Assembly (NCBI GenBank): GCA_026390635.1
Contig: JAPLFO010000139.1
Location: forward strand, 1 to 34,332
Source of the DNA: Ignavibacteriales bacterium
GTDB taxonomy: Bacteria; Bacteroidota; Ignavibacteria; UBA10030; UBA8401
Reading direction: 5' to 3'
Length of the DNA: 34,332 nt
Within the stretch, counting starts at the first letter, position 1. Every line of letters begins with the position of its first letter. Position numbers and translations under genes: made by a program. This document shows, one piece after another, positions 29,155 to 32,257 of the stretch. Below the pieces are notes generated by a model. The model did not search any database, was not told the DNA's origin, and worked only from the letters and a program-made list of their open reading frames with translations.

Positions 29155-30474
29155 TCACCTCCCCGCCAACGTGATCCACTGCGCGATATCATCGATCACC
29201 TTTTCGGAGACATGTCCCGTCTGCTGGTATTCTTCCGGCCTGCTTTTTCCTTCTCCGGCAATGAAGAGATGATTCAATGAGGGATAGAGTATGCACCGCA
29301 CATCATTGCGTGCGGCCAATCCATTTTTCCAGCCATCAAAATCCGCTTTCGTTACCTGATAATCCCGTCCACCTTGCAAGATCAACAGCGGGCGCTTTAT
29401 CTGCAGCGCCGTTTTTACCGGATCATAACGGCGCAGATCAAGCCAATACTTTGCGGGGAGAGAAAGCGGCAGCAGATTCGCAGCGGTCGACGGAGATAAT
29501 GTTCGATCTTTTACCCGCGCAACTTGTTCCTTTAGTTCCACAATGTCATAGGTCGTGTCTTTTTCAAGTGATGTGAGATAAATCATCTGATCCAGGATCA
29601 ATTCTTCCAATGGCCGCGTGGCTCCGGCGAGAACAACTCCGCCGGCAACTCCGCTTGCTTCATGCATGATGCGCGGCACGAGCATCCCGCCAAGACTATG
29701 CCCCACTATAAAGATCTTTTTCCCATCGATCTTTTCTGAGAAAGACAAGACTTCGACGGCGGCAATTGCATCGTCCACCGTCTCTTCCTTCACCGTCAAA
29801 CTATCTTTGATCGCAGCCATCGCGGCAGCATGCGCGCGCGTACGTTTCTCGTATCGCAGAACAGCAATCCCCTTTGAGGCAAGGCCCAGCGCCAGATCGC
29901 GGAACGGTTTGTTCGCTCCAATGCTTTCGTCCCGATCATTCGGGCCCGATCCATGGACAAGCACGACTGCCGGAAACGGGCCGTCTCCTACCGGAAGAGT
30001 AAGTGTTCCCGGCAAAGCCGTTCTTCCTTTTCCGATGAAGATATTCTTCTCGGAATATTTCTCTGACCTCGCATATTCGGGCTGCGCATAAGGCACAACG
30101 GATTCTGCGGGCACAAAATGAAGTCCGGCGATTTCGCCTGACGCATTGATCGCAATTTCGGCTGCAAGGGTTGTGCGTTCAAAAACACACGTAACGAAAC
30201 AAATGTCGAGTCCATCCTTCTTCTCTGTCCGCACACCTGTCTGTTTCTTAAACTGTCCGACTTGCTGCAAAAGTCCCGTCCAGATTTTTTCCAACGTGGC
30301 CGGTGGGCATGCAGTCTTCATTGTCGCATCGAACAACGGAGGTGCGTCGGAGAATTTTCCGGCGGCAAGAAGATCGACAAACTCGCGAGCCCGTTGTTCC
30401 GGCTCAATGGTTTTTTCCTGTGCATTTAAAAGTGTTCCGAAGAACACGATCAGGATTCCAATGCCATGTTTCAT
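29155..30474 (-). CDS. Secreted alpha/beta hydrolase with N-terminal DUF3887-like domain
   Basis: 439 residues with a signal peptide (MKHGIGILIVFFGTLLNAQ). An N-terminal domain (about 25-125) with AREFVDLLAAGKFSDAPPLF and KIWTGLLQQVGQFK matches the DUF3887 pattern often found before such hydrolases. The hydrolase domain has the oxyanion-type LVHGSGPNDRD, nucleophile Ser260 in GHSLGG, an acidic QGGRDYQV loop and a catalytic His in SLNHLF. The combination is typical of extracytoplasmic dienelactone-hydrolase-like esterases; substrate unknown. GGGAG precedes the ATG. It lies 80 bases after the 150-residue membrane protein gene on the same strand and may be read from the SPFH promoter or its own. 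Confidence 0.88.
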   Translation of the reverse strand: MKHGIGILIVFFGTLLNAQEKTIEPEQRAREFVDLLAAGKFSDAPPLFDATMKTACPPATLEKIWTGLLQQVGQFKKQTGVRTEKKDGLDICFVTCVFERTTLAAEIAINASGEIAGLHFVPAESVVPYAQPEYARSEKYSEKNIFIGKGRTALPGTLTLPVGDGPFPAVVLVHGSGPNDRDESIGANKPFRDLALGLASKGIAVLRYEKRTRAHAAAMAAIKDSLTVKEETVDDAIAAVEVLSFSEKIDGKKIFIVGHSLGGMLVPRIMHEASGVAGGVVLAGATRPLEELILDQMIYLTSLEKDTTYDIVELKEQVARVKDRTLSPSTAANLLPLSLPAKYWLDLRRYDPVKTALQIKRPLLILQGGRDYQVTKADFDGWKNGLAARNDVRCILYPSLNHLFIAGEGKSRPEEYQQTGHVSEKVIDDIAQWITLAGR

Positions 30475-30554: not shown

Positions 30555-31007
30555 CTATGCTTTTTCCTCACGCGCTATACCTGCATCCCATAACGCCTTG
30601 GAGAGTTCTTCGGGTCTGTCGGTGCCGACAAGAATGCGCCTCCCGCTCCTCATCCGGAGTTCCACCGCCTTGAATCCTGATACATTATACACCCATGTAT
30701 TTGGCAGGATCCAATGAATTCCCCATCCGTACCACGCCTTTGTGCGACACGGTACCGCACAGGCGATATTAGATAATTTGATAGTCCTTCGGATCAATCC
30801 TGCGCCGAATTTGATCAGCATGGAACTATCCGTGACCACAACGGTCAATGCGGCAAAGAGAAAGAGAATCGCTCCCGCTGCAATAGGCAGAAGCCAGAAT
30901 GGAAACGGCGCGCGTCCAAGCAACACAATCACAAGCGCGGCAGTTGTTGCTGCAAGTATTATATATGTGAGAAGATATCCCGTCTGTGTATGCCTATATC
31001 GTTCCAT
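30555..31007 (-). CDS. Two-TM protein with PH-like C-terminal domain
   Basis: 150 residues from the ATG at 31007, preceded by AAGGAG with a 6-base gap; a longer frame to 31181 runs antiparallel to sense in the RHH gene and is not used. Two membrane helices (about 12-32 and 36-58) are followed by a soluble beta-rich region with the aromatic stretch KAWYGWGIHWILPNTWVYNV and a final RPEELSKAL helix. The helix-pair plus beta-domain layout resembles bacterial PH-like (bPH) membrane proteins. Function unknown. It overlaps the ribbon-helix-helix gene by 14 bases and shares the SPFH transcript. Confidence 0.75.
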   Translation of the reverse strand: MERYRHTQTGYLLTYIILAATTAALVIVLLGRAPFPFWLLPIAAGAILFLFAALTVVVTDSSMLIKFGAGLIRRTIKLSNIACAVPCRTKAWYGWGIHWILPNTWVYNVSGFKAVELRMRSGRRILVGTDRPEELSKALWDAGIAREEKA

Positions 31008-31215
31008 CGCTCTCTCCTTCCGGAGCGGATTGAATCTGCTCCGGTGTGCCCGTGTTCGATGCGGAGATCTTTGGTCGTTTCGCTTTCTTGACGGCATCGG
31101 TGAGCAGAAATTCGATTTGCGCATTGATGCTGCGCAGATCGTCCGCCGCCCATTTTTCAAGTGATGCGAAGACGTCTCCATCGACGCGGAGCAGAAATTT
31201 CTTCTTTTCAGCCAT
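30994..31215 (-). CDS. Arc-like ribbon-helix-helix DNA-binding protein
   Basis: 73 residues. The N-terminal half reads as an RHH fold: strand KKKFLLRVD, helix DVFASLEKWAADDL, turn, helix RSINAQIEFLLTDAVKKAKR. The RSxNxxI core is the Arc/MetJ-type signature. The tail (about 50-73) is polar and probably disordered. RHH proteins bind DNA as dimers on tandem half-sites about one helical turn apart. The three GATATC boxes at 11-base spacing in the promoter of this operon fit that habit, so autoregulation is likely (inference). No toxin-like gene is adjacent, so a toxin-antitoxin role is not supported. Confidence 0.82.
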   Translation of the reverse strand: MAEKKKFLLRVDGDVFASLEKWAADDLRSINAQIEFLLTDAVKKAKRPKISASNTGTPEQIQSAPEGESDGTI

Positions 31216-31319: not shown

Positions 31320-32195
31320 TTACTGATAGAGCGTTCCTGTGTTGACCACCGGCTGTACTTCGCGGTCCGACACCAACGCCACCATCAGATTATTAACCAT
31401 GGTTGCCTTTTTGTCTTCATCAAGCGTTACGATCTTCTGATCCGCAAGAGCCTGTAATGCGCCCTGTACCATGCCCACGGCACCTTCGACAATCAGTTTT
31501 CGTGCGGAGATTATGGCTTGAGCCTGTTGTCGGCGCAACATGGCTTGAGCAATTTCCTGTGCATAGGCCAAATGGCTGATGCGGGACTCGTTGATCACGA
31601 CACCGGCCACTTCAAGCCTCGCCTGCACTTGTGTGCGGAGATTTTCTGCAACCCGCTGCGGAGCGCCGCGAAGTGAATCACCTTCATGGTCCTGGATATC
31701 GTACGGATATTCGGATGCAAGTGCACGGATAGCTGTTTCGCTCTGTATGGCTACAAACTGTTCGTAGTTCTCAACGTCGAACAGGGCCCGTGACGAATCA
31801 GCAACTCTCCAGACGATTACCGCTGCAATTTCAATTGGATTTCCGTGCAGATCATTTACCTTCAACCGCTCACTGTTGAAATTTCTGATCCGGAGAGAAA
31901 CATGCCGCTTCACTGCAAACGGGTTTGCCCACCAGAATCCGTCCTCGCGAACGGAACCGATGTACTTTCCAAAAAGTACAAGTACGCGCGCTTCATTTGG
32001 CTGGACAATGAAGAATCCGGCTGAAAAAATTCCGGTGAAAACAACCAGGGGGACGAAACCCCATAGCATAATCGGGGCATCATTGATAACCATCAGATAC
32101 AGTAATACGACATCGAGAATTGTCAGCAGAAGCAGTATGCCAAGACCAACAAATCCGTTTGTCCGTTTTGCTACTTTTTCGGTAATGGGTTGCAT
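31320..32195 (-). CDS. SPFH/Band-7 (stomatin/prohibitin-like) membrane protein
   Basis: 291 residues. Two N-terminal hydrophobic segments (about 15-37 and 41-65) are followed by the SPFH domain, with [34 protein letters not shown] and [20 protein letters not shown]. An Ala/Gln-rich helix follows ([21 protein letters not shown]), typical of oligomerising SPFH proteins. Such proteins form ring assemblies at the inner membrane and organise proteases or lipid domains. AAAGGAGAT precedes the ATG. It is the first gene of an operon with the RHH protein and the two-TM protein; the RHH start lies 104 bases downstream. Confidence 0.92.
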
Positions 32196-32219
32196 GCAAA
32201 ATCTCCTTTCTCTCGTTGT

Positions 32220-32247
32220 GATATCGTAATGATATCATATTGATATC
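32220..32247. promoter_or_regulatory. Operator-like array: three GATATC boxes at 11-base intervals
   Basis: GATATC occurs at 32220-32225, 32231-32236 and 32242-32247, each preceded by T, at exactly 11-base steps. The flanks TTGTGATATC and GATATCACAA also make the whole array an inverted repeat. It covers the expected transcription start, the -10 and part of the spacer of the SPFH promoter, the classic place for a repressor. The RHH protein of the same operon is the natural candidate. Confidence 0.75.
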
Positions 32248-32257
32248 ACAATGTCAA
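32229..32257 (-). promoter_or_regulatory. Promoter of the SPFH-RHH operon
   Basis: Minus strand TTGACA (32252-32257), 17 bases, TATCAT (32229-32234). Transcription would begin near 32222, about 27 bases before the SPFH ATG, leaving room for its AAAGGAG site. Confidence 0.7.

Follow-up and report, generated by a model that had tools for sequence, protein, structure and literature searches.

The stretch of DNA analyzed here, the 34,332 nucleotides of contig JAPLFO010000139.1 from an Ignavibacteriales bacterium (the window), contains an operon encoding an SPFH membrane protein and a small Arc-type ribbon-helix-helix (RHH) protein. Three GATATC boxes in exact 11-base steps lie over the operon promoter, and the RHH protein encoded in the operon very probably docks on this triplet to turn the operon down. 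We predict a docking site because the arrangement recurs in front of the same operon across phyla and almost never elsewhere. A probability of roughly 0.88 is given to the proposal that the boxes serve as operator in a self-contained loop, in which the Arc-type RHH protein would act as a dedicated local repressor, with three dimers occluding RNA polymerase. The operator is specific to the SPFH-RHH operon, with essentially one site per genome.

Three phased boxes over the promoter of the SPFH-RHH operon

A sequence-only reading of the window had placed GATATC boxes at 32220, 32231, and 32242, overlying the start point, -10 element, and spacer of a TTGACA-N17-TATCAT promoter. Both the positions and the promoter were confirmed, on the minus strand, with the start point being predicted about 7 bases past the -10 element and under the box at 32220 to 32225 (Table 1). 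The Arc-like protein is, as that reading had it, encoded by the second gene of the operon, between the SPFH gene and a gene for another membrane protein. The 11-bp phasing of the boxes holds, but direct repetition alone does not describe the site, which is a 36-bp near-palindrome with mirror-image outer boxes that the same reading had overlooked. This is the top-scoring 36-bp palindrome of the window, and 30 of its 36 positions are symmetric. GATATC-N5-GATATC has no other copy in the 3.98 Mb genome.

Table 1. Control elements and genes of the SPFH-RHH operon in the window
Feature	Position	Strand	Basis or remark
-35 element TTGACA	32252..32257	-	Sequence; kept in most relatives
Operator box 1 (GATATC)	32242..32247	-	In the -35/-10 spacer; GMTATY in relatives
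Operator box 2, central (TGATATCA core)	32231..32236	-	Overlaps the -10 element; best conserved of the three, 1.6-2.0 bits per position
-10 element TATCAT	32229..32234	-	Sequence; 17 bases from the -35 element
Operator box 3	32220..32225	-	At the predicted transcription start; RMTAKC in relatives, mirror image of box 1
Whole operator, 36-bp near-palindrome with all three boxes	32216..32251	.	Palindrome scoring
Ribosome-binding site AGGAGA of the SPFH gene	32202..32207		
SPFH / Band 7 membrane protein, 291 residues, first gene	31320..32195	-	Pfam PF01145, E = 1.8e-22
Arc-type RHH protein, 73 residues, proposed repressor, second gene	30994..31215	-	Family profile vs P22 Arc
Membrane protein, 150 residues, no known family, third gene	30555..31007	-	Start overlaps the end of the RHH gene
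Secreted DUF3887 + alpha/beta hydrolase	29155..30474	-	Next same-strand gene; Pfam DUF3887, E = 4e-17, and hydrolase families

Conservation of the operator upstream of SPFH-RHH operons

Among the 41 nearest genomes, the SPFH and RHH genes are both confined to the identical 20. In these close relatives the triplet is located at about -48 from the SPFH start in 18 of 19 cases, and the contig of the 19th (L027) stops inside the SPFH gene, so that the triplet is present in 18/18 loci with upstream sequence. A cross-phylum set of 80 loci was then taken from genome assemblies, and the 130 bp upstream of SPFH were inspected. The triplet is present in 69 of the 80; eight of the other 11 are contigs that stop short of the promoter, and two more are Calidithermus loci where the operator is found instead ahead of an added first gene. 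With up to three mismatches, a triplet at the 11-bp step was detected in 63 of 73 upstream regions, at steps of 7 to 10 and 12 to 20 bp in none of the 73, and in none of 1,460 shuffled controls.

Within the class (Ignavibacteria), the operator lies upstream of the operon in 64 of the 65 genomes that possess both SPFH and RHH, and in the sole failure (G144) the SPFH gene is cut at its 5' end. In 17 of these 64 genomes, which the strict pattern missed, a degenerate triplet was recognized with the weight matrix or by visual inspection; as the training material of the weight matrix overlaps the tested genomes, the count from the strict pattern is the cleaner one. The operator is also present in Acidobacteriota, Actinomycetota, Myxococcota, Deinococcota, Cyanobacteriota, Bacillota, and one alphaproteobacterium. 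A weight matrix trained with the other phyla left out still gave its top score in those phyla at the SPFH promoter, the site in Solirubrobacteraceae (L113) being the weakest. The sequence-only reading had pointed to orthologous SPFH-RHH promoters as the place to look for phased boxes, and to their loss from relatives that keep the operon as an argument against it; the opposite was found, the boxes being retained both in the class and in distant phyla. Weaker or two-box forms, still at 11-bp steps, occur in Prevotella, Parabacteroides, Phocaeicola, and Acetoanaerobium (L193, L197, L198, L199), which suggests that the number of boxes varies between lineages.

The operator tracks the RHH gene

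For the reverse test, the 294 genomes of the class were searched with the pattern KMTATYNNNNTGATATCAYNNNRMTAKC, allowing one mismatch; patterns rather than the weight matrix were used for the genome-wide scans. The pattern was found in 47 genomes, at a single place in each, and every one of the 47 belongs to the set of 66 that have an RHH match. The remaining 228 genomes of the class, which are RHH-less, all lack the pattern, and a backwards-pattern control produced one match. The association of operator and RHH gives a Fisher p of 2e-39 on raw counts, with kinship ignored. G008 and G216 have the operator on one contig and the RHH gene on another, the assembly being broken at or close to the SPFH gene. 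Even a genome of 13.2 Mb possesses only one operator site, and a single site per genome argues that the RHH protein is a private autorepressor. A global RHH regulon was considered and rejected, a pattern search of the window's own genome with up to three mismatches having produced no second convincing site.

The genome G261, a congener of G075, G216, and G294, has retained SPFH at 61% identity together with the middle gene (locus L173), and has no RHH match genome-wide. Its operator has decayed to GATTAT-N5-AATATT-N5-ATTCTT, with a score of 3 vs 37 in G294 and 40 in G216. Such apparent decay following the loss of RHH is what the autorepression hypothesis predicts. It also bears on the alternative that the site belongs to another, unlinked regulator that controls this operon alone, leaving the RHH protein free to act elsewhere or in another role. 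We regard this as unlikely: the site is limited to RHH-bearing genomes of the class, it is gone where RHH was lost even though SPFH was kept, and with one site per genome, a single-target regulator would need to have tracked RHH over many phyla.

The Deinococcota provide rearranged operons. In a scan of 111 Deinococcota genomes, only sites with an intact TGATATCA core were counted, because a three-mismatch background shows in pattern and control alike. Nearly all of the core-intact sites are 1 to 4 kb upstream of RHH. The site is on a contig other than that of RHH in G368 and G380, and G335 has one good site without RHH in the genome, on a contig that stops inside the SPFH gene. In Thermus the operon order is ABC ATPase, ABC permease, SPFH, RHH, and membrane protein, with the operator ahead of the first gene, and in Calidithermus the operator precedes a hydrolase gene. 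The position in front of the first gene in both genera argues that the operator belongs to the operon, and not to SPFH as such.

Comparison with known RHH systems and proposed autorepression

The profile of close RHH relatives matches the P22 Arc chains without gaps, with a best E of 4.1e-5 (single-chain pArc), and the match extends over the RHH core, including the F-x-L-R strand and the RSVN turn. Pfam Arc is matched at E<0.01 by 24 of 31 RHH homologs. P22 Arc is similarly a short dimeric repressor, and its two half-sites with a 5-bp linker (linker sequence in PMC3325190) correspond to the 11-bp step of the operator described here. The present operator differs in having three GATATC-type boxes, whereas Arc has two half-sites; the strand residues are K-x-L-x-R in the present family and Q-x-N-x-R in Arc; and the present system is found on a bacterial chromosome, in an operon encoding an SPFH membrane protein.

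The premise that Arc-type RHH half-sites are about 11 bases apart was borne out by AmrZ of Pseudomonas aeruginosa, which reads 6-bp boxes with 5-bp linkers and binds as a dimer of dimers on two half-sites 5 bp apart; the Arc and CopG complexes also have 5-base linker sequences between half-sites (PMC3325190). AmrZ is likewise an Arc-type RHH protein that represses its own gene, but it regulates several genes from far-upstream sites, whereas here there is one site per genome, on the core promoter. CdbA of Myxococcus xanthus is a small RHH protein binding direct repeats one helical turn apart; unlike the present protein, it has hundreds of sites, binds cyclic di-GMP, and is a nucleoid protein, and there is no mention of SPFH in PMC7156744. 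Omega of pSM19035 and RelB also place cooperative dimers on repeated boxes over their own promoter (omega heptads, PMC4803016; RelB hexads, PMC2812701), with other box sequences and spacing, and the present operon is without a toxin. Conserved operons containing an SPFH protein have been described among SPFH subfamilies (Hinderhofer et al. 2009, PMC2636767), where the partners are NfeD-type and no Arc or DNA-binding partner is mentioned.

In the proposed loop, the RHH protein would dimerize and one dimer would occupy each 6-bp box. Because 6-bp boxes and 5-bp linkers occur three times over, three dimers on one face of the helix is the natural reading; they would be 11 bp, or one helical turn, apart, and would form a mirror-symmetric array centered on the middle box. 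The bound protein would cover the spacer, the -10 element, and the start point, leaving RNA polymerase unable to start, and when enough RHH protein had accumulated, the operon would shut itself down. Repression may be relieved by some signal, perhaps at the membrane, via the SPFH protein or the variable RHH tail. We infer RHH binding, three-dimer stoichiometry, cooperativity, repression, and relief by a signal; the RHH autoregulation put forward in the sequence-only reading is supported by the retention of the boxes with the operon, their absence from RHH-less genomes of the class, their decay where RHH was lost, and the likeness of the RHH family to Arc and of the box spacing to that read by AmrZ.

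It could also be supposed that the RHH protein binds here but activates, or mainly bends DNA in a structural role, given that AmrZ activates as well as represses (PMC3325190) and that CdbA, with 569 chromatin immunoprecipitation peaks and a one-turn repeat, is a nucleoid organizer (PMC7156744). This is improbable, because a site over the spacer, -10 element, and start point is placed to repress, and genomes have about one such site each.

Symmetry and conservation of the individual boxes

The operator consensus is TGMTATYA-n3-TGATATCA-n3-YRMTAKCA, with 11-bp steps. The outer boxes, TGMTATYA on the left and YRMTAKCA on the right, mirror each other across species (GCTATC..GATAGC, GATATT..AATATC). 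Across 55 non-redundant loci, information is limited to the -35 element and the three boxes, with the middle box TGATATCA reaching up to 2 bits per position. In these loci, pairwise identity reaches 0.94 in the middle box, compared with 0.72 and 0.71 in the outer boxes and 0.55 to 0.60 in the linkers; the mean over the operator is 0.71, vs 0.28 and 0.30 for the flanks. Left and right outer boxes covary (p = 0.0008 by permutation), which we treat only as supporting because kinship was left in.

These values address the reading that the boxes are an unusually conserved promoter, consisting of an extended spacer, -10 element, and start, with no protein operator. The middle box does overlap the -10 TATCAT, and most relatives keep TTGACA at a constant distance; nevertheless, the conservation of boxes 1 and 3 lies outside the -10 and -35 elements, and these two boxes mirror each other. 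The 11-bp steps persist in loci without TTGACA at the usual place (L068, L113, L119, L122), and in Bacteroidales and Clostridia, often in weaker or two-box form, and G261 still requires a promoter yet has lost the boxes. We consequently rejected the promoter-only explanation as very improbable, on the basis of the outer boxes, the mirror symmetry, and the lineages with other -35 arrangements. Functionless chance repeats have practically no probability because, although GATATC is frequent in the window (17 copies, 14 of them outside the operator, vs 7.9 expected from shuffles, and 0/100 shuffles reaching 17), the exact triplet at 11-bp steps arose in none of 20,000 dinucleotide-preserving shuffles of the 150-bp upstream region and is conserved across phyla.

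Several observations weigh against autorepression by the RHH protein. The RHH protein of the window, taken alone, is under the Pfam cut-offs, and the AlphaFold2 model of the monomer has a pLDDT (predicted local distance difference test) score of 64.7 and only one long helix, a poor model being expected for an obligate dimer. The loss of RHH with decay of the operator is a single event. Part of the conservation of the middle box is attributable to the -10 element itself. One cross-phylum locus, L118, has both genes but no site, its upstream sequence being unrelated and resembling foreign coding DNA, and an RHH relative on a Thermus thermophilus plasmid (L194) is beside ABC-transporter genes, with no SPFH neighbor and no recognizable operator.

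Significance of the proposed private circuit

Autorepression by RHH proteins is of a kind already well known, and most studied RHH regulators belong to toxin-antitoxin, phage, plasmid, or metal systems. No description of a three-box operator on SPFH operons was found in the open-licence papers searched for the motif with RHH, SPFH, or repressor. What would be added is the private circuit of a flotillin-like membrane protein, in which an Arc-type regulator and its operator have remained associated across very long evolutionary distances. The regulator may provide a handle on the role of SPFH, as the derepressing signal would reveal what the SPFH protein responds to, and the natural series of three-box operators with matching proteins could be used to study recognition by the RHH ribbon. 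More tentatively, and with less than even odds in our view, RHH and a three-dimer, mirror-symmetric operator might constitute a pan-bacterial module: locked together in no fewer than eight phyla, they would serve an SPFH membrane operon, whose partners may be hydrolase, ABC, or other membrane proteins, as its private sensor switch, with RHH being released by a membrane-state signal via SPFH.

Genes of the operon and its neighborhood

The SPFH protein matches PF01145 with 80.7 bits (cut-off 23.6), and its N terminus is hydrophobic in sequence, so that both a Band 7 domain and a membrane segment are present. A homolog of the third gene is found at the equivalent place in L036 and L091. The DUF3887 hydrolase gene is a possible member of the operon. 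Related hydrolases adjoin the operon in 12/80 loci: in Calidithermus (L108, L114) the hydrolase gene comes first in the operon, and in L097 it separates SPFH from RHH. In many Ignavibacteria, SPFH is separated from RHH by an additional gene (L024-L032, L045:3458-3967, L173:2769-3266), which in L045 and L173 encodes about 165 to 169 residues, the L045 version having no match in Pfam. A second RHH copy is present about 1 kb downstream of the first in two genomes (G031, G297; L033:3968-4105, L171), and a separate operator was not found for these second copies.

A type II toxin-antitoxin module with an RHH antitoxin was considered and rejected, the constant neighbor being the 291-residue SPFH membrane protein and not a small toxin; Pfam and NCBIfam returned no toxin family for any of the operon proteins compared with them. 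Public records name the RHH gene inconsistently, as "PTS ascorbate transporter subunit IIC" in a Deinococcus plasmid (L192:3995-4192) and as "HicB family antitoxin" in Qipengyuania (L196:3995-4186), and the link to the operator would correct such names.
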